Shown here piece after piece: positions 6,786-63,925 of a stretch of 64,000 nt of DNA. Every line of letters begins with the position of its first letter. The stretch's first letter is position 1. The notes under the pieces are model-generated. The model ran no database searches, had not been told where the DNA came from, and saw only the letters and a program-made list of their open reading frames with translations. Both the position numbers and the translations under genes were made by a program. This DNA comes from Lepidostoma basale (lineage: Eukaryota > Arthropoda > Insecta > Trichoptera > Lepidostomatidae), in assembly GCA_022606425.2 (NCBI GenBank), contig JAHDVF020001467.1:744001-808000 (forward strand), read 5' to 3'.

Positions 6786-6816
6786 GACATGTTTCGGATA
6801 ACCAGTCCTTCTTCAG
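6786..6816 (-). ncRNA. Hammerhead-like core, FB-A left
   Basis: Minus strand: CTGAAGA, extra A, GGAC-TGGTT-ATCC hairpin (one mismatch), GAAAC, AT, G, TC. This matches the hammerhead order C3-A9, stem II, GAAA, minimal stem III (C with G), UH cleavage dinucleotide. The extra A between A9 and stem II departs from the textbook core. Confidence 0.55.
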
Positions 6817-6856
6817 TGATAAATATTACAAAGATATATCACTATATGATATGATA

Positions 6857-6887
6857 CTGAAGAAGGACTGGTTGTCCGAAACATGTC
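6857..6887 (+). ncRNA. Hammerhead-like core, FB-A right
   Basis: Plus strand: CTGAAGA, extra A, perfect stem II GGAC-TGGTT-GTCC, GAAAC, AT, G, TC. It mirrors the core at 6786-6816 with one stem II change, here restored to full pairing. Stem I beside the core is weak (two pairs). Whether it cleaves is unknown. Confidence 0.6.
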
Positions 6888-7029
6888 TAGGTAATTTTAT
6901 TTTTTAATATAAGTGTTGTATATACAAAGTACGAGTATATAAAAAAAAAAGATAAATAAACTATTATAACAACACAAAGTATGGCGAATATAGAAGAAAC
7001 ATATATTACGAACTAAAATCAACTTGGAT

Positions 7030-7610
7030 TCCAACTCCGGGGTGTGGGTTCAATCCTAGATTCTACCTTATCCCTTTTCATACTCAATCCTGAGGATTGG
7101 TCTGCAACAAGCTTCACTCGTTTCCTTCACTCAGTCCTGTTTCCAGCCAGTCTCTTCATCTCTGTGTAGTTGCCACAGCGCATGTCTCGAATCATTTGGT
7201 CCATATAGGTGTCCCTTGGGCGGCCTCTGCAGTTCCTGCCCTCGACAATTCCCTCTGCAATAGTAAGCAGGCCCGGGTGCCCGATATTATGGTATATACA
7301 GCTCGTTGCTGGGTAATCTTTTTGATCATCTGACTAGTTTCTCCGGCCCTTCTCACTACCCCGCTGTTTTGGATGTGTTCCAACCAATGGACCCCCATCA
7401 TACGTCTGTAGCACCACATTTTAAAAGCAGCTAGACGTCTGCACTCATTCAGCACCACACTCCAGACAATAGTCTTGATCAGGTTTTTTCTGATGCTCAT
7501 ATTTATGTTATTTGATTCAAGTATCTTTGTCGTTTTATTGAAGGATATTCTGGCTTGCTGTATCCAGCTAACGATTTCTGTCTTTGAGCGCCCATCTTAG
7601 TTATGCTGCT
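7030..7610 (-). mobile_element. RT-10 LINE, 3' part of reverse transcriptase region
   Basis: In broken minus frames one reads SIRKNLIKTIVWSVVL, MWCYRRMMGVHWLEHI, VVRRAGETSQMIKKITQQRA, then GNCRGQE/GRPRDTYMDQMI-like, RCGNYTEMKRLAGNRTEW. This is the order seen at the C-terminus of RTE-like insect LINEs after the reverse transcriptase. Several frameshifts make it dead. The 3' end lies near 7030 and the 5' end is truncated near 7610. Confidence 0.8.
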
Positions 7611-8042
7611 GTCCAGATATACCAACTGATGACACTCAGAACAACATTCGCATACTAATAACAAATATATCTAAATCATGATCATGTATTTTTTTACTTT
7701 AATTATTATTTTGTTAAAATTATTAAAAATTACAATTATTAAATCAAAAGAGTGAAGTAATTTTTTTATTAATAAAACAGAGTTCATTTTTTCATTAGTT
7801 CATTATAAACACAATCGGTTTCGTTGACATCGACACAATATTTGTTTTCAGAGAGGATGTAATAACTTTACAGTCCTTAGCTTGCGGATCATTAATAAAT
7901 TTCCTTTAAACAAATGTTTCCAAAATATATTATATCTCATTAATTTTCCTAGTTGATTTCTAAGTGTAAGAACATATTTTGATTACTTTTCTGCGTTCAT
8001 ATGTAAGATAAACATATTGTATCATAGAGTTTGGAAACTTAA
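7611..8042. other. AT-rich spacer
   Basis: Homopolymer-rich A/T sequence. No feature recognised. Confidence 0.45.
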
Positions 8043-8112
8043 TTTTTTTTACCATTCTCTCCACGTGCCCAAAACACCTAAATGATCATTTCATTAATTT
8101 TGTCGTCATCAC
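8043..8112 (-). mobile_element. RT-1 LINE relic
   Basis: TTTTACCATTCTCTCCACG and AATGATCATTTCATTAATTT align with the reverse complement of the RT-1 segment encoding MNKIMKGSLRWFGHMERM. It is about 70 bp, heavily diverged, with no tail. Confidence 0.5.
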
Positions 8113-8880
8113 AATTTATTATTAATGTAATCAATTGATTTCATAACAATGTTCGGTCTATCGTAGTAAAGCTAGTTAAATGTACGTTTTTGAATTATGA
8201 ACATGATTGTATACACCAAACTGTGCGGCACCTGGCAGCAGGTTACACTTACTAATAACAATTAATAACGATCCCTCGTCCAGATAGCGAGGGGTATTTA
8301 TTTGGCTGTGTCCTGCGGCCACGAGAATGTTTTGCACCTATTAAACTCCAGAGAATACGAGCGCTATCTAAATTGCCTACAATTCTGGTAAGGATTTTTA
8401 TTTTTGCAATCAGAACACACGTGGAAATAGAGGGCCAAACAATCCACAACAAATTGCTGTGTATACTCGTATGTATTTCCTCTATATTCGTTTTCACTTT
8501 GTGCAAATATTACAAACATTGTTTATATTTTTCCCTCCTCTCATGGATGGATTTTAGATATTTTTGGAGGCCGAAGTAACATCTCTTGGCTGAGAAAATG
8601 CGTTTTTTTTTGTTTCGGATGGGTCTCATCCAGCCCGTCTGACTTTTTTGTGTTATAATATTAGTTGAGGGTCACGATAATGTACGATTATTTTTACGGA
8701 TTTAAAGAGTTTTATCTTTCTAAATTCATTTCGTGAATTAATTGATTTTTTTTAAACCCATTTTAGGCGCATTTTAAATCTATACAAAAAATATTTTTTT
8801 GCGTCATCAAACTCTCAACTCTGTTCTTGTATAATATAATAATGTATTCAATAGTATATAACATATAATATACCGCCTTC
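8113..8880. other. Unclassified spacer
   Basis: Includes a moderately GC-rich patch at 8240-8400 (TCCCTCGTCCAGATAGCGAG) and a phrase near 8470-8500 (CTATATTCGTTTTCACTTTG) that recurs at 20.58 kb beside other repeats. No gene is supported. Confidence 0.35.
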
Positions 8881-9240
8881 CATTTAAAGTTTCATTTCTT
8901 AATGCTTTTCTCGCTATGAACGAACGAGTGTCTTAAGATAATCTAAAATACAATCAGTATTTCAAATACTCTGCACAATGGCCATGTATGTAACGTGGGA
9001 TTTGGGTTAAGCAGGACAACCTTAAAGCTTTGTACAGGTTGCTGATATTCTGATATTCGGACGCGGGCGTCGGTCCGTACAAAGGGGGCGCGCCGGTCGC
9101 CCGCGCATAAAATGCAATTTCCTTTTATATCCGCCGTGACATGCTTCGCCGTCTGACCGCCGGACTCCGCATGCAAGATATTGTGAAACGCGTAAATAAC
9201 ATCGGCAGATAGCCCAGAGTAAGTGGCGTAGCTAGACCCA
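8881..9240. other. CpG-rich patch, unidentified
   Basis: A dense CpG block at 9058-9180 (GGACGCGGGCGTCGGTCCG, GGCGCGCCGGTCGCCCGCGC) in AT-rich flanks. The open frames are short and unrecognised. It has no repeat partner here, so it may be single-copy regulatory or exonic DNA. Near 9220, AGTGGCGTAGCTAGACCC resembles hAT-type termini. Confidence 0.3.
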
Positions 9241-9715
9241 AACCACTTAAATATGTATTATACATTTTTAATATTTTTTATGTTCAAATTGTTGGCATCA
9301 TAAACCACCCTACGTAGGTATTTGAACGTACGTGTTACGTTCACTGTGACTGTACCATTCTGCGCTATCCCGCATCACGTACGCGCTTGAGAAAAAGTAA
9401 TGTGCCTAAAATGTTCAAACTTTTAGGGATACGCGCGTGTGCCAACAACACTTGAGTAGTCTTCAGTGAAATGATAGTTTTACAAGAAGCAGGCGAAGTG
9501 TGCGGCCGAGTATTTGACGTTTCGTAATTTAAAAAAATAAAATTAATGTATAACTAAGTTTCATTAATTATAAACCTGCTTTTTTGCACTTTTCTCAGTT
9601 ACCTGAAGGTAGGGCGGTTAAATTACATTAATATAAAAATAGTATTTAAACTTTTACATGATATGGTAGTAAAATAATCCACGAATTTTAAAAATATTAT
9701 AAAGTAAATATTCTA
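9241..9715. other. Unclassified spacer
   Basis: AT-rich with ACGTACGTGTTACGTTCACTG-type CpG words near 9330. No feature can be defended. Confidence 0.4.
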
Positions 9716-10094
9716 ACTAACTAACCATCACGCCGTTTCTCCGGAGGGGTAAACAGAGAGAATGGATCACCACATTGTTCTATCCTGGCATAATACACGC
9801 GCCTTTTCTACATTCACACATCGTGACATGCAAGCTCGTCGATTGTTCCTACTTCGAACTTAGCAGCCTTTCAGTAATTGATTAATTTGGTCATGCCATG
9901 TCTTCCTTGGCCTTCCTCGACTTATTTTACCATTCACATTGCTTGTATATATCTTTTTAGCCATTCTTCCCTCATCCATTCGTTCCATATTTCCAAACCA
10001 TCTTAGTGACCCTATTTGAATTTGATTTATCACGCATTCATCTGCATTACATTCCTTTTTTACTTTATCATTAGATATTCTATCTACCAACTGT
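9716..10094 (-). mobile_element. RT-1 LINE 3' end
   Basis: The minus strand encodes VDRISNDKVKKECNADECVI, SLRWFGNMERMDEGRMAKKI, RGRPRKTWHDQINQLLKGC (stop), then RACMSRCVNVEKARVLCQDR in frame after the stop. The 3' end is GGAGAAACGGCGTGATGGTT followed by the tail seen on plus as CTAACTAACTAA. It is truncated 5' inside the region following the reverse transcriptase domain. Confidence 0.85.
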
Positions 10095-10147
10095 ATAAAT
10101 CTTTTATTATATTAATATGAATTTGAGTAACAATACGTTGACAGAAT

Positions 10148-10564
10148 CTTCTTCTTCGATGGCCCTACAGCCCATATCGAGCCTTAGCCTCCAGTATTCT
10201 TCGCCTCCAACTCCTCCTGTCCTCCGCTTCGACCCTCCAATCTGACACTCGTAATAATCTTGCCCCATCTCTCCCAACATCATCCTCCCATCGCACCCTT
10301 GGTCGTCCGATTGGTCTTCTACCACCTGGGTGCCACTCCAGCAATCTTTTTGGGGTTCGCGATGACGGCATCCTCTACACGTGACCGGCCCATCTCAGTC
10401 TATTCAGTCTGACCTGGGTGGAGAGACTGGGAGCTTTGTAAATATGGTACAGCTCATCATTATGCCGTACTCTCAAGCCTTCACCGTTATTTACAGGTCC
10501 TAGAATTCTGCGCAGCACCCTTCTCTCAAAAGTATCCAGACGCTCTGTGGACAGAACAGTCACA
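10148..10564 (-). mobile_element. RT-8 LINE 3' end with 13-bp target duplication
   Basis: The minus frames read TFERRVLRRILGPVNNGEGL, VRLNRLRWAGHV, GGRRPIGRPRVRWEDDVGRD, LEAKARYGL, with one frameshift, and end in GAAGAAGAAGA. The word ACGTTGACAGAAT occurs exactly at both borders (10135-10147 and 10565-10577). It is a 5'-truncated insertion of about 420 bp, probably fairly recent given the intact duplication. Confidence 0.9.
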
Positions 10565-10577
10565 ACGTTGACAGAAT

Positions 10578-12189: not shown

Positions 12190-12445
12190 TGATGTGATTT
12201 TTTCTCGATATGTTTCGAATATACGTTTATTGATTATGAATCCATAATTTTATAGCATTAATTGATCAAAAAAATATGATTCTTTTTAAATAAAACATTA
12301 CTTTTTCCATTATTTACAATAGTTTATTTTTCTCAACAAGTCTTAAAGGTTTTATATCCTTCATCGTCGAGTTTATATCATTATCCCGATTACGAGGGTG
12401 TGAAGCTTTCAATATATGTCGAGAAAAGTAAAAAGATAACAGTAT
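12190..12445. repeat. FB-C foldback, decayed
   Basis: TTTTTTCTCGATATGTTTCG (12195) and TATCCTTCATCGTCGAG with GTGAAGCTTTCAATATATGT, GAGAAAAG downstream are decayed versions of the FB-C phrase CTCGACATGTTTCG ... CACCTTCATC. The arms are diverged and the core is not readable as a hammerhead. Confidence 0.5.
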
Positions 12446-13075
12446 TTCAATTCTTGAAAAATTCTAGTATTCTGGTATATCTAGTATTTCCAAGGCCTTA
12501 AGATTATCAAAATGTATTATGAATGTCAACATTGAGAATGATATATAATATATAGAAGCTTGTGTATACAAGTTACCAACAGTGTAACGAATACGTCTGC
12601 CCTTATAAATGACCACTTAGCCGCCATATTCCGCATTGAATAGACGTCAGAAGACACATCGAGGAGAGCTGCCATCGCTCATAGAGTTTTCTAAAACCCA
12701 ATGCATTTGGCTCTAATGTCTCCTTGAGAAATGGCTCCCGGCATCCGCAGCGTCCCCACTTAAAGGTATTGCTAGTCTCTGATTTCACTCACTTATCTCG
12801 GATATGACTTGTTTGTATACGTGTATTGTCATAAATTTAGCGATATAACGAACGCTCGTCCCCGTATTCGAGTTAAGTAGCAGCTACGCTAGCTCGGGGT
12901 AATCCCCCGAGTTGCGCTAAGTAATTGCCGTGGTTAGGATCGGCGGAGTCGCGTGAATTGAATTTGGACAGTGCCAAACTGAACGATTTCGTATTTCCCC
13001 TATTAACGTTATTCTACATATGTATGAAATTTTTTTTTTGTTTCTAATATTGGAGAGGTTCTTTTTTGTAATAAT
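12446..13075. other. Spacer with two GC-richer patches
   Basis: 12600-12790 and 12840-12990 are GC-richer (CTAGCTCGGGGTAATCCCCC, GGATCGGCGGAGTCGCGTG) and have no repeat partner here. GGGGTAATCCCC is a perfect 12-bp palindrome. No exon can be defended. Confidence 0.35.
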
Positions 13076-13512: not shown

Positions 13513-14060
13513 ATAATTACCATTTCAGGGCGCCATAAGTTCACAAACTATTACTTTCCCATATCTAATTAACATGATGTAAAACGGCTGTAAATTGGTA
13601 TTTTATTATATTTTTACGTTTTGGAGAAACATAACGTAATGCAAGACATTTTTTTCTATATTTAATAAAATAAAAGCACCCAACAACTTGTAGAATGCTG
13701 GTTTCGTTTTTATTGTAGACTCTTACCTGGCAGAGTCGCTAAAACTTTTAAATATCGCCGATTGGTATCGATTTATATTTAAGTCTTGGTCCTGCCCTGC
13801 AAAAAGCACATTCGTGTAGCAACGAAATTACCGCGAACAAGTGAGTGGTATCTGAGCATTTTACCTTTCGGGCAATTTGATGTATCGGGAGAGCAGACAC
13901 AATAGGAGGCGGGGTCGTGGAGGGCGCTGTACCCGCACGATCCTGTGCCATAAGGAGATGAAAACTGCCAGGAGTGGATTGGGAGGCATTTATGTGTTAT
14001 GTATACATTTAAAAAATCTGTAAATAATATTAAAATATATCAATAATAACGATTTTTATT
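13513..14060. other. Unclassified spacer
   Basis: Mostly AT-rich. 13780-13960 is GC-richer (GGAGGCGGGGTCGTGGAGGG) with a 67-aa minus frame I cannot identify. Confidence 0.4.
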
Positions 14061-14061
14061 A

Positions 14062-14210
14062 ATTAAAGCAATGTTTTCTCAACTTTTGAGTTTATTTTTC
14101 TCGACATGTTTCGAAGGCTTTACACCTTCATCATTTCCCGTTTTATATCGTTCTCTCAACGATGAAGGTGTAAAATCGTAAGTGGAAAAAACAGTGTTTT
14201 AATTCATTTA
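14062..14210. repeat. FB-C foldback
   Basis: TTTTTCTCGACATGTTTCGAA faces GATGAAGGTGTAAAATCG...GGAAAAAACAGTGTTTTAAT, with outer words AAAGCAATGTTTTC opposite ACAGTGTTTTAATT. The apex contains ATCGTTCTCTCAACGATGAA. It is the best FB-C copy in the window. Confidence 0.7.
14102..14133 (-). ncRNA. Hammerhead-like relic, FB-C
   Basis: Minus strand: TGATGA, A, GGTGTAAAGCC with flanking TT/CTT, CGAAAC, AT, G, TC, G. The first core base and part of stem II differ from the consensus, so this is likely inactive. Confidence 0.4.
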
Positions 14211-15429: not shown

Positions 15430-15600
15430 AGTATATATAGTATACACTACAACGAGCTGAAATTTCGTCACATTTGATAATGCCTTAGAAGGGCGAAACT
15501 TGTCATTCTCGTAAAATATAATAAAACTTCTAGAAAACTAACGTTTTCATTCGTATTAATTATTTAATATGGAGTTTTACATCATTGTTCAAGAAACAAA
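15430..15600 (+). repeat. FB-B foldback, right arm and core
   Basis: The core at 15474-15504 is followed by the FB-B right arm: AATATAATAAAACTTCTAGA, AAACTAACGTTTTCATTCG, TTTAATATGGAGTTTTACA, TTGTTCAAGAAACAA. The left arm is absent except for ACGAG opposite CTCGT, so this is a truncated copy. Confidence 0.7.
15474..15504 (+). ncRNA. Hammerhead-like core, FB-B
   Basis: TTGATAA, T, GCC-TTAGAAG-GGC, GAAAC, TT, G, TC. The second half is intact; TTGATAA in place of CTGATGA changes C3 and G8 and should abolish normal catalysis. TTGATAA is shared by most FB-B copies, so the change is ancestral to the family. Confidence 0.45.
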
Positions 15601-15659
15601 AAATAAAAAAAACGATGTTTTTTTTTAACTACTTCCACATTTTTCTTTATTTCGACGGC

Positions 15660-15690
15660 GACCAGTTTCGCCAGTCTCGCTGGCATCAAG
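15660..15690 (-). ncRNA. Hammerhead-like core, separate foldback family
   Basis: Minus strand: CTTGAT, GCCAG-CGAGA-CTGGC (perfect 5-bp stem), GAAAC, TG, G, TC. The GA before stem II is lost, so catalysis is unlikely, but the stem and GAAAC-NN-GTC half are perfect. Confidence 0.4.
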
Positions 15691-15840
15691 AATGGTTTGT
15701 CGACCAGTATGTTGATGCAGTTCTCTACCAAAAAAGATACAAAACAACAAATAACAAACAATACATTTATTTACTTTTTAATAATTTTAACTCGAGGGTT
15801 TCCGCAAATTCAAATAAGACATGATTTTAATCTAATTTAG

Positions 15841-18894: not shown

Positions 18895-18995
18895 TTATGG
18901 ATACAAAATATTAAAACATTTTGTATTTAACCACGGTATAATTGATCCCAACTAGTTTAGTTTGTACCCAAGCTTCATCAGGGCAATATAAAAAC
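18895..18995 (-). repeat. FB-D/FB-F foldback remnant
   Basis: ATTTTGTATTTAACCACGGT is the FB-D arm word; it is followed by AACTAGTTTAGTTTGTACCC and AGCTTCATCAGGGC, the reverse complement of an FB-F core. It shows that the FB-D arm and FB-F core belong to one element type. Confidence 0.6.
18950..18981 (-). ncRNA. Hammerhead-like core, FB-D/F, mutated
   Basis: Minus: CTGATGA (perfect), A, GCTT-GGGTAC-AAAC, TAAAC, TA, G, TT. G12 of GAAA is mutated to T, and one stem II pair is lost, so it is probably dead. Confidence 0.5.
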
Positions 18996-19007
18996 TCCGT
19001 TATTATT

Positions 19008-19135
19008 ATTTTTCTTCTTCTTTTTATACTGGTTGGAGATTGCAAAGGCCTGTTTCTGCAGAGCTTGCTGCCTTACGATGTGGTATCCGAGGCTTACCTC
19101 TCTGTACCGTGAGCGGTTGTATATCTATAAGTTTA
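19008..19135 (-). mobile_element. LINE 3' tail fragment with (GAA)n
   Basis: Minus strand ends LCRNRPLQSPTSIKRRRK, with GAAGAAGAA at its 3' end. The length and placement fit the extreme C-terminus of an RTE-like element. Family not assigned. Confidence 0.4.
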
Positions 19136-24183: not shown

Positions 24184-24425
24184 CGACCTTCGTGGCAGAG
24201 TGGTAAAAGCTCTGACTTCAATACCGAAGGTCCCGGGCTCGATTCCCGGCGATGGCAGTGTGATTGTCACACTCTCTTTGGTCTGGTGTAGAATTCACGT
24301 GACAATAGCTACCTATCACATGTCATGAGAATCAATATAATAATAGCTAAAAACAAATTGTATACAGTAATTGGGTTCAAATGACCATAAATACATAAGT
24401 AGGTATACATCAAATATAAAATAAA
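24184..24425 (+). mobile_element. tRNA-headed SINE, tail type 2
   Basis: GACGACCTTCGTGGCAGAG head, A-box-like TGGCAGAGTGGTAAAAG, B-box GGCTCGATTCCC, CACACTCTCTTTGG body with a short deletion (the ATAAAATGGCGATAGATT part is missing), then the second-type 3' end GTATACAGTAATTGGGTTCA. Confidence 0.9.
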
Positions 24426-25344: not shown

Positions 25345-25460
25345 TTATTATATATTTGTCTTTTTCTTTTTATATACTTTGTATACCTGTTAACACTAGC
25401 TTTAAAAAAAATTAAATGTCAGACATCATTCGGACAACCCGGTCCTTCCTCAGTGATATT
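25345..25460 (-). repeat. FB-A half element
   Basis: TTTTCTTTTTATATACTTTG and ATTAAATGTCAGACATC correspond to the left arm of the 6.7-kb FB-A element; the opposite arm is missing. Confidence 0.65.
25422..25453 (-). ncRNA. Hammerhead-like core, FB-A
   Basis: Minus: CTGAGGA (perfect CTGANGA), A, GGAC-CGGGTT-GTCC (perfect), GAATG in place of GAAAC, AT, G, TC. Inactivated at the GAAA element, otherwise intact. Confidence 0.5.
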
Positions 25461-25587
25461 ATAAAGATATTTAAAATATTATAAAATTGTTACAAATATG
25501 ACCAGTTTTGACAGATGTTATGTTGATTTTTGTTTCATAAAATTGTACATATATATATTATATATACACAGTTTCCTAAAATCGAAT

Positions 25588-26949: not shown

Positions 26950-27260
26950 TTTAAATTAATAAAAGCACTGTTATTTATATTTTTGAGATTATATTTTGCG
27001 ACGTGTTTAAAGGTGTCATACTTAATATAGTTATCCCAATGATGAAGGTATAAAATCTTTCGAGAAAAATAATCTTAATTTTATTATAAAAACAGGGTTT
27101 TCTATAAAACACTGTTTTTTTTACTTTTAGATTATTTTGCATGACATGTTTTGAAAAATTTGTACCTCAATCATTGGGTGAAAAACATAAAAGAATGATG
27201 AAAGTATAATACATTCGAAGCGTGTCGGAAAAAATGTACTCAAATGAGGAAAAAATATTG
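26950..27260. repeat. FB-C foldbacks, two decayed copies
   Basis: Phrases ATTTTGCGACGTGTTTAAAG, CCCAATGATGAAGGTATAAA, TTTGCATGACATGTTTTG and GAATGATGAAAGTATAATAC are decayed FB-C units in alternating orientation. Hammerhead-like cores are no longer readable. Confidence 0.5.
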
Positions 27261-27838
27261 TTTCAATTTATTAAGATTCAGATTTATTAAATATCAAAGA
27301 AATGTCTTTGATGCGTCCACAATTAGCTACTTACTGAATTTGGTCACGCCAGTGCTTGAAACTCAACGAATCCTAGAAGGAGGGTTCTTTAAGAAAAACT
27401 TGCTTTCGTTTTCGTAAAGCCGAATTTTCCGATACAAAATGACTTTGTTAATAAAAATAATACGATTTTTATGAACTTAACAATTACTTTCCATTTTTTA
27501 TGATGTTTCTTTCACATCAATTTGGAATAGAAGGAACACGAGAAAATGCGAAGGAGTAGGTATTGAGTAATTATAATCAATTGAAGTTGCTTAAAATTTT
27601 TAATAACGATATTTATTTTTAAGTTAACTTAAGTTAGCTTTTTAAGAAGTATAACATTTTAATATAAAAAATCTTTTAAAAAACATACGTTTTCATCAAT
27701 ATTAAATTATTAATTACTTAAGAAACTATAATGTATATCTCCTCTACATTCGCCATCACTGTATTGAAAAGATGGTATTTTCTTAACACTTTTTTATACT
27801 TTACACAAACTAGTAGGTAGGGCCTCTATAGCCAAACA
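27261..27838. other. AT-rich spacer
   Basis: Nothing recognised. CTCTACATTCGCCATCAC near 27740 is the foldback edge word. Confidence 0.4.
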
Positions 27839-29388: not shown

Positions 29389-29624
29389 ATTGTCTTAATT
29401 TTTGTTACACTATTATTATATCTGGTTTTTAATGTTCAAAATGGTGCTAAATATATCAACCGATGATATAAGTAATCAAATATGAATCACTGTTATAATA
29501 TCACAATTTATTTATTTCATTTCTATGAAATCGTTGCCACAGCTGTTTGGCCAACCGAAGTTGGCATTTAATAATAGTAAACACGTTTGTTTAGTGGTTT
29601 TACTTGAATTTAATTTATATAAAT

Positions 29625-30750: not shown

Positions 30751-31260
30751 CAACCTATATGTATTGTGTCTTTTAAGATGATAAGTTAATCCGTTAACTA
30801 ATTTTTATTGCTAGTAAATATTGAGATAGATTTTTCTTCCATATTCGTGTGCCGTGTGTCATATTCCTCCCACTAGGTGACGCCGCTCCCAGGTCGACCC
30901 CGCTGCCATATTGCACGGAAGGTAAACACCGTAAAGCTCTCCCATTTTTGCTAATCTTGGCAAAACTTTCTACGTTGTTTGGCCAATCATAATAACCGGA
31001 GGTAATAACATCCATCATCATCCCTGCGGGGCTAACAAAATGTCGCTTATTCGTGAAAAATCCGGGACATGGGTGGGTTTTTCAATTATCATTTTAACTA
31101 TAATGGTATCCGGTAAATACTTGTAAAACGAAACGAATCCTTAAAATCGTTAAAACGTTTAGTCAAAATAACAATCTTACTTGTTTTGTAAGAAGGTGAC
31201 TTAACGGCGAGGTGTACATATCGGTTCGCTCTGACAATTCTACGAGTCAATATAGTGTCA
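30751..31260. other. Unclassified spacer with GC-richer patch
   Basis: 30830-31080 is mixed (GTGACGCCGCTCCCAGGTCG) with a 75-aa minus frame that I cannot identify. Confidence 0.4.
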
Positions 31261-31261
31261 A

Positions 31262-31620
31262 AAATACAATTGTAACACCTGATGATGTCAACATAGGTTG
31301 ACGAAACAGCTGTCGCGTAAAATAAAATACAATTGTGATACATAAAACCAAGTAATTTAATTCAACAGTTTAAAATGTTAAGGTATCATAGTGTTTCGGC
31401 CAAAACAATGGACTATTTAATTTGAAGAAAATAATTAAATAGTCCATTGTTTTGGCCGAAATACTATAATACTTCAACTCTAACTTTTAAAATTTAAACG
31501 CTGTTTTGGTGTCACAATTTTTTAAATTTTATTTTATTATTTTTCTACAAATAAACCAAAAATTTATCGTAACACCTGATGATGCCAAAATCGATTATAC
31601 CATTACAGCGTTTTGATTTC
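31262..31620. repeat. FB-E repeat cluster with 39-bp palindrome
   Basis: Contains a hammerhead-like core (31279-31314), then a palindrome with 39-nt arms (31384-31422 / 31433-31471, TTTCGGCCAAAACAATGGAC) around a 10-bp loop, then a decayed second core start (CTGATGATGCC at 31576). The same order core, ACAATTGTGATAC, ATAGTGTTTCGGCC recurs at 56.76-57.71 kb. Confidence 0.75.
31279..31314 (+). ncRNA. Hammerhead-like core, FB-E, best preserved
   Basis: CTGATGA (perfect), T, GTCAAC-ATAG-GTTGAC (perfect 6-bp stem II), GAAAC, AGCT, G, TC. All conserved hammerhead core bases are present. The only departure is the extra T between A9 and stem II. Stem I next to the core is C-G, mismatch, C-G, A-T. Confidence 0.65.
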
Positions 31621-33990: not shown

Positions 33991-34275
33991 TTGACGACCT
34001 TCGTGGCAGAGTGGTTAAGAGCTCTGACTTCCATTCCGAAGGTCCTGGGTTCGATTCCCGGCGATGGCAGTGTGATTGTCACACTGTCTTTGGTCTGGTG
34101 TAAAATTCACGTGACAATAAAATGGCGATAGATTGGCTACCTATCACATGTCACGAGAATCAATATAATAGCTAAAAATTAAAAATAGTATACAGTAATT
34201 GGGTCCAAACGACCTGTTGTGTACATTAAAAAAAAAAATAATAAAAAAAAATAAAATAAAAAAAAAAATAATAAT
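33991..34275 (+). mobile_element. tRNA-headed SINE, tail type 2, near-complete
   Basis: GACGACCTTCGTGGCAGAG head, A-box-like TGGCAGAGTGGTTAAGAG, perfect B box GGTTCGATTCC, full body (CACACTGTCTTTGGTCTGG, AAAATGGCGATAGATTGG), type 2 end (ATACAGTAATTGGGTCC, CCTGTTGTGTACAT) and a long A-rich/ATA tail. The best copy for a subfamily consensus. Confidence 0.95.
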
Positions 34276-36551: not shown

Positions 36552-36664
36552 GAATCAATTAAAATAATGAACATCGATATTTGATATAACTTCCCTGAAG
36601 ATGGAGATCAGAAACGCCGGCCAAAAAGTAAAAGTTACACGGATCTACCCAAAATTTCAAAAAA

Positions 36665-37075
36665 AACATATGAAAATCTTCTTCTTCTTTCCCCCCGCCT
36701 CTTTCAGTTACTCGGGTCGACTTTTCTTATCATTTGGCGCCAGGTATTTCTTTCGTAGGCAGCTTCCTCCTTAAGGCCTAGGGCCTTCATATCCCTCTGC
36801 ACATTCGTCAGCCAGGTAGTTTGAGGTCTTCTTCTCCCTCTCCTACTAGTCACGGAAAGACACTTTTTCACTACATGGTCGTGAGGTCTCCTCATCACGT
36901 GACCATACCTTTTGATATGACTTTTGTTTTATGGGGGCTACCTTGAAACTTCAATGTGACTCCTCCCGACCACCGCAGCATGCGCATTTCTGTTGTATTG
37001 TGTGAGTTTTTGTTCATAGATCTTTTTAGATGGCCTTACTTCGCTTCCGTATAGTAATGCCATAAAAACATATGA
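36665..37075 (-). mobile_element. RT-9 LINE 3' end
   Basis: Minus: MMRRPHDHVVKKCLSVTSRR, GRRRPQTTWLTNVQRDMKAL, GLKEEAAYERNTWRQMIRKV, DPSN. Upstream, ALLYGSEVRPSKK in another frame. A distinct RTE-like C-terminus with an A/G-rich end. Confidence 0.85.
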
Positions 37076-39740: not shown

Positions 39741-39845
39741 TCCTCATCATCGGGTGTGATGAACAAACTGATGATGTCAACACAGGTTGGCGAAACTCAA
39801 ACGTCAAACTCACATAAATCAATAGAAATATAAATCATTTTGCTG
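39741..39845 (+). repeat. FB-E foldback remnant
   Basis: TCATCATCGGGTGTGATGA precedes a hammerhead-like core; the flanking FB-E sequence is diverged. Confidence 0.5.
39768..39805 (+). ncRNA. Hammerhead-like core, FB-E
   Basis: CTGATGA (perfect), T, GTCAAC-ACAG-GTTGGC (one wobble), GAAAC, TCAAAC, G, TC. All core bases are kept with a six-base stem III loop. Extra T before stem II as elsewhere. Confidence 0.6.
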
Positions 39846-39897
39846 TCAACTCCATAAATAAGGAGAGGTACAAGATAACCATTTTGCAAAACCATAT

Positions 39898-42447: not shown

Positions 42448-42705
42448 TGACGACCTTCGGGGCCGAGTAGTAAGTGCATTGACTGCCACTCCTAAGGTTC
42501 CGGGTTCAATTCCCGGCGAGGGCAGTGTGATTGTCACACTTTCTTTGGTCTGGTGTAGAATTCAAGTGGCAATAAAATGGCAATAGATTAGCTACCTATC
42601 ACATGTCACGAGAATCACTATGATAGCTATAATACCCTTTACATCGATTTGGCTCATGCTGTCATGATGTAAAAAGCGATTCAACATAATAATAATAATA
42701 ATATG
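42448..42705 (+). mobile_element. tRNA-headed SINE inserted in RT-6
   Basis: GACGACCTTCGGGGCCGAG head, B box GGTTCAATTCC, complete body, type 1 3' end (CCTTTACATCGATTTGGCTC, ATGCTGTCATGATGTAAA) and (AAT)n tail. It interrupts the RT-6 word encoding VVTYG-ESWTM; RT-6 continues on the far side. Confidence 0.95.
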
Positions 42706-44519: not shown

Positions 44520-44670
44520 CCAGTATTCGTCTACAAGTACCTATTTGTATACATTATTTTTTGTTTGTTTTATCAAACCAACCAGTTTCGCTCCCGTCGA
44601 AGCTTCGTCAGGGTAACTAAAAACAAACTAAATAACAAACAAATAAACACATTATGGCATATACGAACAT
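44520..44670. repeat. FB-F foldback, single core
   Basis: TATTTTTTGTTTGTTTTATC faces ACAAACTAAATAACAAACAA, AATAAACA across the core at 44580-44611, so the arms extend stem I of the core. Confidence 0.65.
44580..44611 (-). ncRNA. Hammerhead-like core, FB-F
   Basis: Minus: CTGACGA (fits CTGANGA), A, GCTTC-GACG-GGAGC (5 bp with one wobble), GAAAC, TG, G, TT. All core bases are kept; UH is TT. Extra A before stem II. Confidence 0.6.
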
Positions 44671-48933: not shown

Positions 48934-49495
48934 ATAATATCGCACCGTGAGTGTAAAACCGAGATAATTGCAAATATAAATTTTGTGTTAAATTATTTTT
49001 ATTTTGTTATTTTATTTTATATCATTGTATTTTATATTATTTGTTTTAGATTTATTTTGTGGGTGTTGCACGATCGAAGTGTGCGCGGGAGATGCCTATT
49101 GGTGGCGATGAGGTTCGCAACCCATCACACCGCGTCTCCCGCGGAGCGAAAAGAGAAGGATGGAGTGCCGCATCAGTAAAAGTGTGGCAGTCCATTCTTT
49201 CTGCCTACCCTTTCAGGGAGATGGCGTGATGGTTAGTTAGTTAGTTAGTTAAATTTTGGAGATATGGGAGTTAAAAGACTTCATATTGCTTGGAAAAAAC
49301 GTTTTTTTTTTTTAAATAAACCAATAATTTTTGGTTTAAAGGTATATTACTATAAACCGAAAATCATTGGTTTATTTAAAAAAAAAACAGTTTTTCCTAG
49401 CAATATGAAGTCTTTAAACTCCCATATCTCCAAAATGTATATTTGCACTTATCTCGGTTTTACACTCACGGTGCGATATACTCGTATATGTATTA
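48934..49495. repeat. Foldback FB-G, split by TTAG-S
   Basis: The left arm ATATCGCACCGTGAGTGTAA, AACCGAGATAATTGCAAATA faces TATTTGCACTTATCTCGGTT, TTACACTCACGGTGCGATAT. The inner arms are ATATGGGAGTTAAAAGACTT and AAGTCTTTAAACTCCCATAT, then AAATAAACCAATAATTTTTG opposed by ATCATTGGTTTATTT. Once TTAG-S is discounted, this is a near-perfect foldback of about 297 bp. No hammerhead-like core found. Confidence 0.85.
48986..49250 (+). mobile_element. TTAG-S retroposon, delimited by 8-bp duplication
   Basis: 265 bp between two AAATTTTG words (48978-48985, 49251-49258), which are one word in the opposite foldback arm. It has an AT-rich 5' third, the GC-rich body (GCGGGAGATGCCTATTGGTG, CACACCGCGTCTCCCGCGG, which contains a GGGAGA/TCTCCC inverted repeat), GTGTGGCAGTCCATTCTTTC, GGCGTGATGGTTAGTTAG and a (TTAG)4 tail. 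There is no tRNA-like head. Confidence 0.9.
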
Positions 49496-56759: not shown

Positions 56760-56915
56760 AATTTATTGTAAATAGTCCATTGTTTTGGCCGGAACACTAT
56801 GATACCTTAACATTTGAAACTGTTAAATTAAATAACTTTGTTTTTTGTATCACAATCGTATTTTATTTTACGCGACAACTGTTGACATCATCAGGTGTTA
56901 CAATTGTTACAACAA
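56760..56915 (-). repeat. FB-E foldback, left half
   Basis: ATAGTCCATTGTTTTGGCCG, TTAAACTG..., TATTTTATTTTACGCGACAA, CATCATCAGGTGTTACAATT. The core on this arm is damaged: minus reads CTGATGATGTCAACA and then jumps to GTTGTCGCG, losing stem II and GAAAC. The other arm is at 57590. Confidence 0.75.
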
Positions 56916-57580: not shown

Positions 57581-57589
57581 TTTTAATCG

Positions 57590-57712
57590 TCAATACATTG
57601 TAACACCTGATGATGTCAACATAGGTTGATGAAACAGCTGTCGCGTAAAATAAAATGCAATTATGATACAAAAAACAAAGCTATTTAATTTAACAGATTA
57701 ATTTATTGTTTC
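57590..57712 (+). repeat. FB-E foldback, right half
   Basis: CATTGTAACACCTGATGATG ... GCGTAAAATAAAATGCAATT, GATACAAAAAACAAAGCTAT, TTAATTTAACAG. It is the inverted partner of 56760-56915 and keeps an intact core. Confidence 0.75.
57607..57642 (+). ncRNA. Hammerhead-like core, FB-E
   Basis: CTGATGA (perfect), T, GTCAAC-ATAG-GTTGAT (one G-U), GAAAC, AGCT, G, TC, GCG. It differs from 31279-31314 by one transition that preserves stem II pairing. Confidence 0.65.
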
Positions 57713-59396: not shown

Positions 59397-59494
59397 TTAA
59401 ATAATTATATAAATAAAACAACTTTGTATTTAACCACGGTAGGCTAACCTACCGTGGTTAAATGCAAAGTTGTTTTATTTATATAATTATTTAA
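59397..59494. repeat. 98-bp nearly perfect palindrome, FB-D arm
   Basis: TTAAATAATTATATAAATAA, AACAACTTTGTATTTAACCA, CGGTAGGCT directly abuts its inverted copy with no loop and few mismatches. It carries the FB-D word AACCACGGT on both arms and lacks a hammerhead-like core: apparently an arm duplicated back to back. Confidence 0.85.
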
Positions 59495-59499
59495 AATGT

Positions 59500-60488
59500 C
59501 TATCCACAAAGTGAGTGCTTTATATGAATAATTAATATTAATTTACTTTGATTTTTTTATAATTTATTTCCAGTATATAATATAAAAAAAACACCATTCT
59601 TAATATAACCACTTGTAAGGGGGGAATAACCAATAAGTGACTTGAACAACGTTTTATTATCTCAAATTACTTTAACTAATTCACGTGAAAGGCATACTGT
59701 GTAATTCTTTAACACTATATATAAATATAATATAACTGTTTTATATATAATTTTATAATATATTTATGGAGAAAGGTCACATCCCAAACATGTAGTACAT
59801 GGAATATACATATATATATATTTTTAAATATTCAATAAATATATTAAATAATCTGTATTATCCACTGAACACTATTGTTTTAAATTCGCCTTCTTAAAAC
59901 AAGTTACTTTCAATTTAAAAAAAAAATTTGGCTGATTTCTCATATTTTCTATGATTTACCTACTTCTTTCTCCTCGTTTTTTCCCGGTACTCTGGGTCAC
60001 CTTTTTATCATTTGGTTAATCGTTAATTATAAGGTATTTCGTCGGTATACCATAGGTGTATAGTGTATATTATATCAACTTGAAAAAATGTTTTCCACTT
60101 GGATTTGGACTTAACATTCTAGCATACTCAGCTTCAGTTCTTGTTGTTATTCATCTTACGTCTAATAGGTTCTATTGGGATTGCATTATAATACAATCCC
60201 AATTTAATTATTTTAATTTTGTTTACTCGACAGAGTTTTATAGCATCAGCAGGAGAAATATATAAACATTATATTGATTATTAAGGTAAACCTAAAACAT
60301 GTACAAAAAATAAACTCAAAAGTAAATAAAAACCATTATTTTTTTAAAATAAAAAGGTAATTATGTTCATTCCAATTTGAATTTACATGAAATGTCAGAT
60401 GATAATTTAGAAAAAAACAATTATTCAACCTAAAATCGGAAATCCCAATGATAGATGAATTCATTCTGACTCCCTTCATATCCTAACC
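59500..60488. other. AT-rich spacer
   Basis: About 1 kb without gene or repeat recognised. The 69-aa plus frame at 60056 has no motif. Confidence 0.4.
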
Positions 60489-60775
60489 CCACAATAAAAT
60501 ACCTCTCAAATTATGACCCAAACCCACCAGCCGCCACAAGCGCCCAAAATCGATCCTCCTTCAGAGGAACACTGCAGGCCACTGAAATTAAACTCCCACA
60601 TACACCAACAACCCACCAAATCACCTTTCTTAAAATGTTCCCATCAGACGTAAGAGGAATAGCCACAATATCTGATCCTCTGTAAGCCAGAATATGTTTG
60701 TCAAAGTCCAAGTCCTAATACAAACGTGGCACCTAAATACCTACATAAAGCATGTTTATCAATAACGAATCCCCA
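60489..60775 (-). repeat. Repeat Y, tandem unit 1
   Basis: The unit holds AGCCGCCACAAGCGCCCAAA, ATCGATCCTCCTTCAGAGGA, AATCACCTTTCTTAAAATG, GACGTAAGAGGAATAGCCAC, CCAAGTCCTAATACAAACGT. The minus frame is 66 aa: MDFDKHILAYRGSDIVAIPL, TSDGNILRKVIWWVVGVCGS, LISVACSVPLKEDRFWALVA. No protein family recognised. Confidence 0.8.
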
Positions 60776-61215
60776 TAATAAAAGACCTCTCAAATAACGA
60801 CACAAACACCTTCAGCCGCCACAAGCGCCCAAAATCGATCCTCCTTCAGAGGAGCACTCTGAGACACAGAAATCAAGCCTCTGCATAAACCGACAATCAA
60901 CCAAATCACCTTTCCAACAATATTCCAATCAGACGAAAGAGGAATAGCCACAAGTGCTGAACCTATTAAAGAAAGAAGATCTAACTCAAAGTCCAAGTCC
61001 TAATACAAACGTGGCACCTAAATACTTACATAAGGCTGCCTGTCTACCGGAGCGGAGCTAGGTGGCGGAGCGGTGAGCGAGGTAAAAATCCACATAAAAT
61101 CTCCGCTCGGACATTTTATGCAATTCTATTGGTGGATTTTACCTCGCTCACCGCTCCGCCACCTAGCTCCGCTCCGGTGGACAGGCACCCTAAATTATGT
61201 TTATCAGTAACGAAT
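60776..61215 (-). repeat. Repeat Y, tandem unit 2 (carries MITE)
   Basis: The same unit again, about 78% identical in the ORF region and identical over AGCCGCCACAAGCGCCCAAA and the next 20 bp. Minus frame of 68 aa: MDFELDLLSLIGSALVAIPL, SSDWNIVGKVIWLIVGLCRG, LISVSQSAPLKEDRFWALVA. Its end (TTATGTTTATCAGTAACGAA) is separated from the rest by the 61034-61190 MITE. Confidence 0.8.
61034..61190. mobile_element. GC-rich Harbinger-like MITE, TAA duplication
   Basis: 157 bp, almost entirely a hairpin: GCCTGTCTACCGGAGCGGAG, CTAGGTGGCGGAGCGGTGAG, CGAGGTAAAAATCCAC facing GTGGATTTTACCTCGCTCAC, CGCTCCGCCACCTAGCTCCG, CTCCGGTGGACAGGC. It is flanked by TAA (61031-61033, 61191-61193), the TWA target expected of PIF/Harbinger. 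It interrupts repeat Y, which gives the empty-site sequence. Confidence 0.85.
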
Positions 61216-61589
61216 GGAATTTGAATAATTATACGTAAATAGGTATGTCATGACTTTATCACTTCTAGTTTTAAACAACCAACAAGTGTACGTTATTTTA
61301 TCTGGAATAATAAAAAAGGTCGTGTTTATGTTATGAAGCTGTAAAAAATACTCACCTACCCATCTACTCAACGGTTTTGGGTTATCGCTGAACATTGATA
61401 ACGAGTAGGTACCACATGAATAGGGAGGTACCCTAAGGTTACAAAAAAGTTCTGATAAGAAACGAACCAAATATTTATCTCTTAAACGTATTTTTTGTCT
61501 CTACTAATCTCTGATTTATCACATATAATGCTTAGCTTGAAATATATTGTATTATATACACTTCCTTATTTACATTTTGTAAAAACACG
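61216..61589. other. Unclassified spacer
   Basis: No feature recognised. Confidence 0.4.
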
Positions 61590-61800
61590 AACATAATGAT
61601 TAAAATAAATTAAAAACGTCTGACTTTTAGGAGTTTTATTTAATTTCAAATTATTCTCAAATGTTTGATAATGTCTTAGAAGGGCGAAACGTGTCATTCT
61701 ATATTAAATTTAATAAAACCCCTAGAAGACAGAAGTTTTCATTTTATATTGATTATTTAATATGGAGTTTTACATCATTGTTCAAGAAACAATAAATAAC
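61590..61800. repeat. FB-B foldback, single core at apex
   Basis: AATGATTAAAATAAATTAAA, AACGTCTGACTTTTAGGAGT, TTTATTTAATTT faces AAATTTAATAAAACCCCTAG, AAGACAGAAGTTTTCATTTT, ATATTGATTATTTAATATGG. The arms (about 60 bp) pair across the core, forming a long stem I. Confidence 0.85.
61665..61695 (+). ncRNA. Hammerhead-like core, FB-B
   Basis: TTGATAA, T, GTC-TTAGAAG-GGC (one wobble), GAAAC, GT, G, TC. The second half is intact, with FB-B type substitutions in the first half. Confidence 0.45.
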
Positions 61801-61993
61801 GAACATTATATATATATTATTTTCTTTAAAACCTTTTTAACCTGCTATTTACGTATTTTGAAAAATAAATACTGGAGCAGCAAACATTTTCGCGCACATA
61901 AAATATTAAAAAATAATTGTGTTAAACGTGTACGTATTTTTTTTAAATTCACACATTACAATAAAAGCTTCTTTAGATATTTAAAAACACATT

Positions 61994-62118
61994 CAACTAA
62001 CTAACTAACCATCACGCCGTTTCTCCGGAGGGGTAGGCAGAGAGGATGAACCGCTAAACTGTTATATTCTGACACAACTCTCGCGCCTCTTCTACATTCA
62101 CACATCGTGACACGCACT
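61994..62118 (-). mobile_element. RT-1 LINE 3' tail
   Basis: CAACTAACTAACTAACCATC, CGCCGTTTCTCCGGAGGGGT and ACATTCACACATCGTGACAC. It ends abruptly at an FB-A half-core (GGCTGTCCGAAACATGTC). Confidence 0.8.
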
Positions 62119-62205
62119 GGCTGTCCGAAACATGTCTATTTAATTTTAGTTTTTTTAATGTTAGGGATGTATAAAGTATATAACAATAAAAAGAGAAATT
62201 AAACA
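62119..62205 (+). repeat. FB-A half element
   Basis: CTGTCCGAAACATGTCTATT, TAATTTTAGTTTTTTTAATG, GTATAAAGTATATAACAAT: stem II 3' side, GAAAC, AT, G, TC and the right arm. The CTGAAGA half has been replaced by RT-1. Confidence 0.65.
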
Positions 62206-62787
62206 TTATTTAAATAACGCCATTACACACACTCATGGTTAAAATTACGTATTGTATTTTTATTTTAATATTGATAAAGGTTTTGGTTCATATTATAATA
62301 AACATACATGTATTCTCAAAAATTGTTACGTAAATATTTGAAATTCCTGAACAAGATAAATATTTAACAAGGAAATAGCAAAACACTAGCCCATTATATA
62401 ATGTAATGTTTGCGTAATACAAATTACAGTAGCATGTTTCTCGATAAAATAGTTATCCAGCAAAACAAGTCAAAGATGCTCAATGTCAGGCCAAAGCAAG
62501 GATTCAACCCGAATTCTCAAATCCCCACACAGAGGCCTCCCTAGCGACCTATCTCGCCTGCTGGTTGTACTACACGCCAACAGAGATCTCTAGCAACATC
62601 AAAACTGTGATTATGGACCAAAGTTACGTAAATAAAAGGCACCTTATTTCGTTATCGAATAATTAATATGTTTATGCTATATATTTTTTTATTAATCCCT
62701 CCTCATAATAATGTTTTTACAAGGCATTTTTTTTTATATTAACAAGATTCTTTAATCAAATAATTTATCAAAATTTAAAGCTAGACC
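62206..62787. other. Unclassified spacer
   Basis: AT-rich with a mixed patch 62480-62620 (CACACAGAGGCCTCCCTAGC). Nothing recognised. Confidence 0.4.
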
Positions 62788-62942
62788 GCCAAGTTAGGAA
62801 GTCGTAAAAATCGACGTGCGTCTATGACTCGCTGTATGAGTTTGGATGAATATAGTGAGAAGTGTCAATATCGAGGGTGGCGGTCCATTCTCTCTGCCTA
62901 TCCCGTAGGAGAAAAGGCGTGATGTTTTGTTGTTGTTGTTGT
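62788..62942 (+). mobile_element. RT-1 LINE 3' end, variant (TTG)n tail
   Basis: SRKNRRASMTRCMSLDEYSE, KCQYRGWRSILSAYPVGE, then GGCGTGATGTTTTGTTGTTG. The tail is TTG repeats instead of TTAG. Confidence 0.8.
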
Positions 62943-62997
62943 ATACCAGATTCCTACATTGTTATGCATCAATATGTTTTTTTTTAATTATAAAAAT

Positions 62998-63240
62998 ACC
63001 TATATATATTGTTTCTTGAACAATGATGTAAAACTACATATTGAATAATTAATACGAATGAAAACGTCAGTTTTCTAGAAGTTTTATTATTTTTTATGGG
63101 AATGACATGTTTTGTCCTTGTAAGGCATTATTGAATGTCAAATTTGATAATGCCTTTGAAGGGCGAAACAAGTCATTCCCATAAAATATAATAAAACTTC
63201 TAGAAAACTGACATTTTCATTCGTATTAATAAAAATATAT
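62998..63240. repeat. FB-B foldback, palindromic form
   Basis: AAAACTACATATTGAATAAT, ACGAATGAAAACGTCAGTTT, TCTAGAAGTTTTATTATTTT, TATGGGAATGACATGTTTTG faces the same sequence inverted (CAAGTCATTCCCATAAAATA, AAACTTCTAGAAAACTGACA). Arms of over 90 bp. The right arm core is intact and the left is decayed (AAAACATGTCATT on minus). Confidence 0.9.
63144..63174 (+). ncRNA. Hammerhead-like core, FB-B
   Basis: TTGATAA, T, GCC-TTTGAAG-GGC, GAAAC, AA, G, TC. Beside it stem I pairs AAT with ATT. C3 and G8 are substituted as in the family. Confidence 0.45.
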
Positions 63241-63311
63241 TACAAAATAATGGAGATGTTTTGTTCATCATTAGTCTCTAGTATTATTTATAACTGAATA
63301 AAACTTGTTTA

Positions 63312-63525
63312 TTGACGACCTTCGTGGCAGAGTGGTAAGAGCTCTAACTGCTATAGTAAAGGTCCCGGGTTCGATTCCCGGCGATGGCATGGTGTGATTG
63401 TCACACTGTCTTTGGTCTGGTGTAGAATTCACGTGGCAATAAAATGGCGATAGATTAGCTACCGATCACATGTCATGAGATTTAATAGGTAAAAAAAACA
63501 GTAATTGGGTTTAAATAACCTGCTG
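63312..63525 (+). mobile_element. tRNA-headed SINE, tail type 2
   Basis: GACGACCTTCGTGGCAGAG, TGGTAAGAGCTCTAACTGC, perfect B box GGTTCGATTCC, body with an extra TGG after GATGGCA, TACCGATCACATGTCATGA, then AACAGTAATTGGGTTTAAAT of the type 2 end. Confidence 0.92.
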
Positions 63526-63689
63526 CAAACAAATGTTGAAAACTACGGGAATCTACCACATTAAATGCCTAAGCCTAAAGGCATCCCAATAACAAGCAAA
63601 AAATGTTACTCTTTGCTGCAAACCAATTCCAAAGATTGAAAACTAGAGAGTGAATAGAACATACTTTTGAGAAAATTTTCGTATGAAGC

Positions 63690-63925
63690 ATTCACTTTGT
63701 GGTAAGCCATTTTAATTTTTTTAAATTAATTATATTTAAAATAAAATAAAAATAAAAACGGCCCTGAGAAAACTTGGGTACAAGTTCGGGTGGTACCCAA
63801 TCTTCGTCAGGGTTTCGTAATAACATGTTATTACGAAGCCCTGAGGAAGCTTGGGTACAAGCGAAACTAGTCGGCAATTAAAATAACCGCATAGTGGTGA
63901 AAAACAAAGTGCAGTGTTTTTATTT
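63690..63925. repeat. FB-F foldback, palindromic form
   Basis: AAAAATAAAAACGGCC, GAAAACTTGGGTACAAG, CTTCGTCAGGGTTTCGTAAT, AACATG | CATGTTATTACGAAGCCCTGA-type inversion, AGCTTGGGTACAAGCGAAAC. The outer words TTCACTTTGTGG and CAAAGTGCAGTG also oppose each other. The left core (63782-63810, minus) is decayed (CTGACGA kept, stem II and GAAAC damaged). Confidence 0.85.
63841..63872 (+). ncRNA. Hammerhead-like core, FB-F
   Basis: CTGAGGA (fits CTGANGA), A, GCTT-GGGTAC-AAGC (perfect 4-bp stem II), GAAAC, TA, G, TC. Stem I beside the core pairs GCC (63838-63840) with GGC (63873-63875). All catalytic-core bases are present apart from the extra A. Confidence 0.65.

Follow-up and report, generated by a model that had tools for sequence, protein, structure and literature searches.

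What are the foldback repeats that are scattered through a 64,000-nucleotide stretch of the Lepidostoma basale (Trichoptera) genome, and why do families with unrelated arms share one hammerhead-ribozyme-like core? The stretch (assembly GCA_022606425.2, contig JAHDVF020001467.1, positions 744,001 to 808,000; hereafter the window) had been read in a first-pass annotation as holding about twenty such cores embedded in foldbacks, which could be relics of Penelope-like elements (PLEs) or a new host of the motif. Our answer, to which we assign a probability of roughly 0.8, is that the foldbacks are head-to-head pairs of the pseudo-long terminal repeats (pLTRs) of PLEs with a predicted minimal type I hammerhead, likely reverse-transcribed from both cut strands of the target. 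This reading is preferred because of the covarying core, the head-to-head order, a tail that mostly stands at one end, target-site duplications in the clearest copies, and PLE open reading frames (ORFs) with the ribozyme syntax downstream.

The strict form of the motif, CTGANGA-N-GAAAC-N(2-8)-GTH, occurs at seven sites in the window: 6786-6816 and 44580-44611 on the minus strand, and 6857-6887, 31279-31314, 39768-39805, 57607-57642 and 63841-63872 on the plus strand. All six copies that the first-pass annotation had singled out as the best are among them. Genome-wide there are 28,575 + 36,620 = 65,195 matches against 365 + 284 = 649 for the reversed pattern (eight rows of the genome listing are second readings of one site), and the claim that the motif exceeds chance therefore holds. 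BLAST with hammerhead arms as queries (72 of 79 relaxed motif matches, seven being dropped by eye as chance) detected 24 arms with a hammerhead in the window, against none once the window was reversed, and 82 arms in 200 kb of contig C1 against one in its reverse. For seven of the 24 window arms the best query was the window's own copy, while the other 17 rest on other copies. As such, the earlier figure of about twenty cores is right only if decayed copies are included, since the strict motif gives seven sites. Together, the window and C1 hold 106 arms in 264 kb, which extrapolates over 768.8 Mb to roughly 300,000 decayed or intact arms, a figure to be taken as an estimate only. The Rfam hammerhead models, which the same annotation had proposed as a check, matched neither the window nor five related loci when hits of E<=5 were allowed, presumably because stem III is only 2 bp long.

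Stem II of the core is real and is supported by compensatory change. Among 53 strict hits that were collected blind to stem II, at least 4 bp lie next to the core in 45 (mean 1.7 and maximum 7 of 53 when the region was shuffled) and at least 3 bp in 48. The second pair is C-G in 22 hits, G-C in 18 and T-A in 9, and the third is T-A in 20, C-G in 13, A-T in 12 and G-C in 3, so that between families the stem changes on both strands while CTGANGA and GAAAC stay constant, as had been proposed. Because a MAFFT alignment of 50 cores put the 3' strand of stem II in the wrong place, these counts were taken from the motif after right-justification. Types were assigned by eye from stem II, about a dozen in all. 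Two-sided change of this kind bears on the idea that the syntax is a DNA-level site, either for protein binding or as a cruciform-forming inverted repeat, with no role for RNA. The elements are certainly conspicuous as DNA foldbacks, but compensatory change around an unchanging CTGANGA and GAAAC, together with the position of the syntax downstream of PLE ORFs (described below), leaves that idea with almost no credence.

The order of a type I hammerhead with minimal stem III, also part of the earlier claim, holds by sequence, and catalysis is predicted. The type I core CUGANGA ... GAAA ... UH with A15.1-U16.1 is present, and two families, Q (CCGANGA) and K (CTGTNGA), deviate from it. Stem III consists of A-U plus C-G, and its loop is palindromic (AT, AGCT, CG, TA) in 43 of 55 copies, those within a family not being independent. 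A dimer would rely on such a palindrome in stem III, and the predicted ribozyme perhaps acts as one; dimeric cleavage is known for small PLE hammerheads (cited in PMC7761336). For stem I, at least 3 bp are found next to the core in 15 of the 53 hits (shuffled mean 3.6, maximum 10), the copy at 63841 being a clear example with GCC/GGC and then GTTAT/ATAAC. In the copy at 39768-39805 both stem I pairing and the stem III palindrome have been lost. The ribozyme spelling of locus L048 has six occurrences.

The layout of a whole element can be followed in foldback S of the window:

6703..6712, no strand: left target-site duplication ACATATATTA of foldback S (flank comparison)
6708..6968, no strand: foldback S, a head-to-head pair of pLTR arms (110 and 113 bp, 94% identity)
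6786..6816, minus strand: left-arm hammerhead core (strict motif; BLAST arm 6726-6841)
6857..6887, plus strand: right-arm hammerhead core (strict motif; BLAST arm 6832-6950)
6969..6998, plus strand: one-sided 30-nt tail between the right arm and the right duplication, homologous to the start of the PLE ORF at locus L058 (...AAAGTAATGGCGAATATAGAAGAA)
6999..7008, no strand: right target-site duplication ACATATATTA of foldback S (flank comparison)

Alignment of this tail with the start of the L058 ORF scored 66, against a shuffled maximum of 45.

Across the window and the related loci, 32 distinct inverted elements were compared. Their arms are 79-98% identical, measure 70-130 bp in 27 elements and include the hammerhead within the aligned part in 25. 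Neighbouring arms less than 450 bp apart are head-to-head in 21 of 30 pairs in the 200 kb of C1 (five same-direction, four tail-to-tail) and in four of six pairs in the window (one same-direction). Furthermore, a head-to-head pattern with a spacer of 8-38 nt has 3,562 + 3,597 matches in the genome against 5 + 3 when reversed, where an intact pair scores on both strands. This order is a difficulty for a view of the foldbacks as metazoan retrozymes, small tandem repeats that spread via circular RNA. Type I hammerheads with a weak stem III and non-coding units of a few hundred bp would suit such elements, and PMC7229834 reports retrozyme-like repeats in many invertebrates, insects included. However, tandem repeats of 150-450 bp are not what is seen here, same-direction neighbours being the minority in both regions, and PLE tails and ORFs are attached, which makes a retrozyme origin highly unlikely.

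Mismatches between the two arms, counted in 24 elements, fall at 29 of 356 core positions, 63 of 454 stem or loop positions and 237 of 1790 other positions. Since one arm of each pair was selected by its match to the motif, fewer mismatches would be expected in the core anyway, and therefore no claim of in-situ selection on the core is made. As a side observation, the foldbacks at window 6780-6892, L046, L058 and L030 have hits to microRNA precursor models of Rfam that stay under the gathering score, so that an automatic pipeline may report them as microRNA hairpins. Similarly, window 49263-49427 and 61074-61150 form long hairpins with sub-threshold matches to microRNA models, and both lie outside the 24 hammerhead arms.

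The ends of the elements are usually unlike each other. Flanks were examined in 28 of the 32 inverted elements (c1:67205, L033, L042:169 and L044 were dropped), each end being scored against tail references with its own reference left out. A tail was found at exactly one end in 19 of the 28, at neither in seven and at both in two. In the clearest copies the duplications are 8-11 bp long, for example 10 bp with a tail of 31 nt at L046, 10 bp with 22 at L037, 9 bp with 36 at L029, 9 bp with 24 at L036, 11 bp with 49 at C1:170656 and 8 bp with 43 at L031. Flank words of at least 9 nt are common to both sides in 10 of the 28 elements, compared with 7.8% of different-family pairings, and words of at least 10 nt in 7 of the 28, compared with 2.5%; some of these common words will be due to chance. 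The V-type foldback at c1:8387-8591 (L009), with a V tail and a C-type tail, is perhaps a chimera of two PLE families.

Read outward, the tails of several families start with ATG. They encode MLRYHSVSAKTMDY in V (window 31375), MAYHKVNASYEN in T (window 63710, minus strand), MSNHQVLASYQK in R, MSHHKLSASYES in C, MEFHSINALSLFK in Q and, from one copy, MNFHQEISVKSFDY in K. These peptides, chosen by eye from ATG frames, resemble each other and the PLE segment MNPQHKVMANIEE, and the summed score of the seven was reached by none of 1000 shuffles. At L058 that segment is residues 21-33 of the ORF, whose first 20 residues are encoded within the pLTR. The tail, judged from these alignments, is the start of the PLE ORF. 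The G tails are conserved and without ATG, and many decayed copies have none.

It is here that miniature inverted-repeat transposable elements (MITEs) need to be weighed, in which case a transposase would have moved the foldbacks and the hammerheads in their terminal inverted repeats would be incidental. Small size (143-326 bp in 28 of the 32 elements, 589-794 bp in the other four), high copy number and inverted arms are all typical of that class, and the V terminus resembles a TA-flanked terminal inverted repeat. The one-sided tails and the link to the ORF nevertheless led us to reject this reading and to leave very little probability for it: the two ends usually differ, the tail is the PLE ORF start, the clearest duplications vary in length where a fixed one would be expected, and copies with a GIY-YIG domain have the same layout.

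Among the coding copies, L058 (contig C853) has an ORF of 845 aa in which RVT_1 (E 3.3e-9) and GIY-YIG (E 1.1e-4) both score above the Pfam cut-off, and a hammerhead lies 112 nt past its stop. In a second PLE family, at L060 (contig C916), the hammerhead lies about 145 nt beyond the GIY-YIG match. Furthermore, C1:1342451-1344013 has two 662-bp arms, identical at 661 of 662 aligned bases. Each contains the final part of a GIY-YIG ORF (for one of them Pfam gives E 7.5e-5) and, after it on the same strand, a hammerhead; the locus has a one-sided tail and AACTAACTAAC-like flanks at both sides. A protein search with a GIY-YIG fragment gave 9,650 first-look candidates, and among the 150 that were scored the best are 99-100% identical with open frames of up to 862 aa, a further family at about 58-59% identity has frames of up to 873 aa, and neighbours less than 5 kb apart are head-to-head in 22 of 23 pairs. 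A tblastn search of the 200 kb of C1 with a single PLE family as query, which other PLE families may escape, found three GIY-YIG fragments compared with 82 arms; the copies there are thus mostly ones in which no coding sequence was detected. Downstream of all three fragments, in the same orientation and at a distance of 168 to about 230 nt, lies a hammerhead or what decay has left of one. A search of the PDB returned no relative of the PLE ORF by sequence.

These results bear on the choice that the first-pass annotation had left. Its suggestion of PLE relics holds by sequence, as tails in the window match the start of a PLE ORF from the same genome, and the search that it had advised for ORFs with reverse transcriptase and GIY-YIG domains found them, followed by the same ribozyme syntax on the same strand. 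The alternative of a new host of the motif is not needed.

How could such mirror-image copies arise? Purified PLE protein of Anolis cuts and extends both strands and starts inside the RNA, and the Anolis tail is the stretch that separates two start sites (PMC11167929). In PLEs of Adineta the pLTRs are likewise head-to-head, one inverted pLTR bears a 31-bp tail, and there are short duplications (PMC3846280). On the simplest reading, the PLE enzyme of L. basale would reverse-transcribe the 3' ends of its RNA, primed by both cut target strands, in two independent target-primed reactions of which one would begin at the tail and the other at the pLTR end. Both reactions would run toward the 5' end of the RNA and be joined in the middle. 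The unequal arms at C1:1342451-1344013 fit two independent truncations.

The same PLE origin could also lead to a mirror image by self-priming, where the first complementary DNA (cDNA) folds back at a palindrome near the 5' end of the pLTR and copies itself. This route has been proposed for Adineta PLEs (PMC3846280), and the palindromic stem III at the L058 junction would suit it. It would also account for the near-perfect palindromes, the unpaired middle being 0-3 nt in 32 of 67 spacers. A pure hairpin copy, on the other hand, predicts equal arms and the same outer end, which disagrees with a tail at one end in most elements and with the unequal arms of the coding copies. We hold self-priming to be a possible but rather unlikely route.

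Those palindromes count against priming from both cut strands, and several other observations weigh against our reading as a whole. Many arms are solitary, with no other arm within 450 bp for 13 of 24 in the window and 31 of 82 in C1, so that the first-pass description of the cores as embedded in foldbacks is true of part of the arms and fails for the rest. Convincing target duplications were found in a minority of elements, and the two elements with two tails (c1:154929, where both are V-like, and c1:8387, where one is V and the other C type) depart from the one-ended pattern. The window itself gave no hit for PLE coding sequence in the tblastn search with the one PLE family, V-type copies frequently have an A-C mismatch near the core in stem I, and the 5' ends of three sense copies lie at the cleavage site, 7 nt beyond it and about 40 nt beyond it. 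Cleavage by the ribozyme as what sets the 5' end of full-length copies was accordingly rejected: L058 fits and the two others do not.

As RNA, foldback S (6708-6968) has a predicted fold of -124.6 kcal/mol (z -20.6), so a transcript of the whole foldback would be locked as a hairpin and the ribozyme should act in longer PLE RNAs. In the foldback transcript it would be masked by its own antisense arm. If it works at all, it would do so in the longer PLE transcripts, perhaps as a dimer through the palindromic stem III.

Two large families have altered cores. By the standard numbering of hammerhead residues, CCGANGA is U4C and CTGTNGA is A6U. With the reversed pattern as the only control, the former has 4,389 + 4,839 genome matches against 160 + 140, and the latter 7,371 + 13,163 against 425 + 408, with many of its sites counted twice. 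Roughly half of the CCGANGA rows listed belong by eye to family Q and the others resemble decayed copies of other families, while the nine CTGTNGA rows that include letters are all K-like. PMC3088659 reports that U4C has considerably lower activity in vitro, yet sufficient for a viroid, and that a C6 variant has low but detectable activity. A literature search for A6U in the hammerhead ribozyme found no paper in the collection searched.

In addition, the inner ends of the arms cluster. Of the 67 head-to-head sites listed, 20 have symmetric arms (with up to 3 mismatches) of 13-14 nt and 21 have spacers of 27-29 nt, a distribution that is shaped by the spacer limit of the pattern. The clustering spans families of different sequence (GTTTATTGTAACAC, GTTTGTGTATAGCC, GTTATTACGAAGCC), and therefore many arms appear to start about 14 nt before the core, at the 5' edge of stem I. 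A tentative suggestion, which we hold to be possible rather than probable, is that Q (U4C) and K (A6U, with thousands of copies) are either natural active core variants or a sign of Penelope mobilisation independent of cutting. The moving unit may be an RNA that begins exactly at the ribozyme, and cleavage would then add another kind of 5' end, of which L058 would be an example.

Besides foldback S, the window holds the following hammerhead-bearing arms and tails:

4996..5066, plus strand: V2-type hammerhead arm, decayed (BLAST)
5675..5710, minus strand: B-type arm, decayed (BLAST)
12369..12464, plus strand: Q-type arm, decayed (BLAST)
14044..14191, no single strand: Q-type head-to-head pair, 14044-14134 minus and 14142-14191 plus (BLAST)
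15598..15712, minus strand: K-type arm of the A6U-core family, core decayed (BLAST)
18901..19008, minus strand: T-type arm (BLAST)
25357..25478, minus strand: S2-type arm, GAAAC damaged (BLAST)
27022..27279, no single strand: three Q-type arms, 27022-27101 plus, 27105-27191 minus and 27195-27279 plus (BLAST)
29478..29568, minus strand: V2-type arm (BLAST)
31254..31376, plus strand: V-type arm, hammerhead 31279-31314 (strict motif, BLAST)
31375..31416, plus strand: V tail starting with ATG, encodes MLRYHSVSAKTMDY
31558..31609, plus strand: V2-type arm, decayed (BLAST)
36585..36668, plus strand: G-type arm, decayed (BLAST)
39743..39865, plus strand: V-type hammerhead 39768-39805, stems I and III decayed (strict motif; own sequence the best BLAST query)
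44520..44636, minus strand: C-type arm, hammerhead 44580-44611 (strict motif; own sequence the best BLAST query)
56814..56907, minus strand: V-type arm with internal deletion, tail ATG at 56813 (minus), encodes MLRYHSVPAKTMDYL (BLAST)
57582..57702, plus strand: V-type arm, hammerhead 57607-57642 (strict motif, BLAST)
60276..60354, plus strand: Q-type arm, decayed (BLAST)
63669..63710, minus strand: tail of the left T arm, ATG at 63710 (minus), encodes MAYHKVNASYENFL
63780..63934, no single strand: T-type head-to-head pair, 63780-63835 minus and 63816-63934 plus, hammerhead 63841-63872 (strict motif, BLAST)

A Pfam search of eight ORFs of the window gave no domain match. Five similar tRNA-like stretches (33997-34069, 24186-24257, 42453-42524 and 63318-63389 on the plus strand, 6027-6098 on the minus strand) score 33.0 to 29.7 bits against an Rfam cut-off of 29, and are probably the heads of tRNA-derived short interspersed nuclear elements. 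The repeat ATCTTCGTCTCTATTGAGATACAATTAA adjoins several hammerhead elements (the flank of window 44580, L001, L002 and L008), and a dispersed repeat around AACTAACTAACCATCACG flanks copies at the right of window 39768, at L002, at L046 and from C1:1344014 onward, where the PLE insertion seems to lie within this dispersed repeat. Elsewhere, L005 (with a (GAA)n tail), C1:134844-135386 and other C1 ORFs contain what we take to be reverse transcriptase C-termini of the long interspersed nuclear element type, and C1:178565-179534 is presumably a mariner-like transposase fragment. The TTAGG repeat is typical of arthropods; its arrays have 1,511 + 1,498 overlapping matches here against 10 + 23 reversed. 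At C23:86902-89637 these arrays are broken at a regular spacing of about 193 bp, perhaps as a satellite or a telomeric element.

The in vivo role of minimal PLE hammerheads is described as still a mystery (PMC7761336), and loss of the hammerhead does not stop PLE insertion in vitro (PMC11167929). A genome that combines about a dozen stem II types with near-identical young PLE copies, with cores both intact and altered, and with head-to-head insertions by the thousand is as such a natural experiment, which bears both on the need for catalysis and on the route of PLE insertion. Moreover, elements of this kind may be misfiled as MITEs or microRNA hairpins, the copies tested having been missed by the Rfam hammerhead models.

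Among known systems, RNAs of the Avsunviroidae type carry hammerheads of both polarities, and the foldbacks resemble them in that each strand carries a single ribozyme, which in the rod lies opposite the antisense of its counterpart. This is an analogy only, and no RNA replication is suggested. The cores resemble minimal type I hammerheads with a reduced helix III, of which thousands are dispersed in metazoan genomes (as described in PMC7761336). Very many type I hammerheads with weak stem III are likewise a feature of metazoan non-LTR retrozymes, with 126,247 type I motifs in the axolotl (PMC7229834), but those are tandem repeats that give circular RNA, whereas here head-to-head is the commonest neighbour order.

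The closest likeness is to PLEs of the Penelope/Poseidon type, which, as described in PMC3846280 and PMC11167929, combine reverse transcriptase and GIY-YIG in one ORF, carry hammerhead syntax at the pLTR, show an inverted head-to-head pLTR with an optional tail of ~31 nt and a duplication of 8-10 bp, and encode the first ORF residues in the pLTR. A literature search, in which most matches were judged without full text, found PLE hammerheads and inverted pLTRs described and met no report of pLTR-only foldbacks as the dominant class. Unlike known PLEs, non-coding copies here far outnumber coding ones in the stretches examined, about a dozen stem II types and two large altered-core families coexist in one genome, and neighbouring coding copies are inverted and not tandem. 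L. basale is unusual in the scale of the phenomenon, in how many copies consist of the pLTR alone, in an inner start that often lies about 14 nt ahead of the core, and in the two large families with an altered core.

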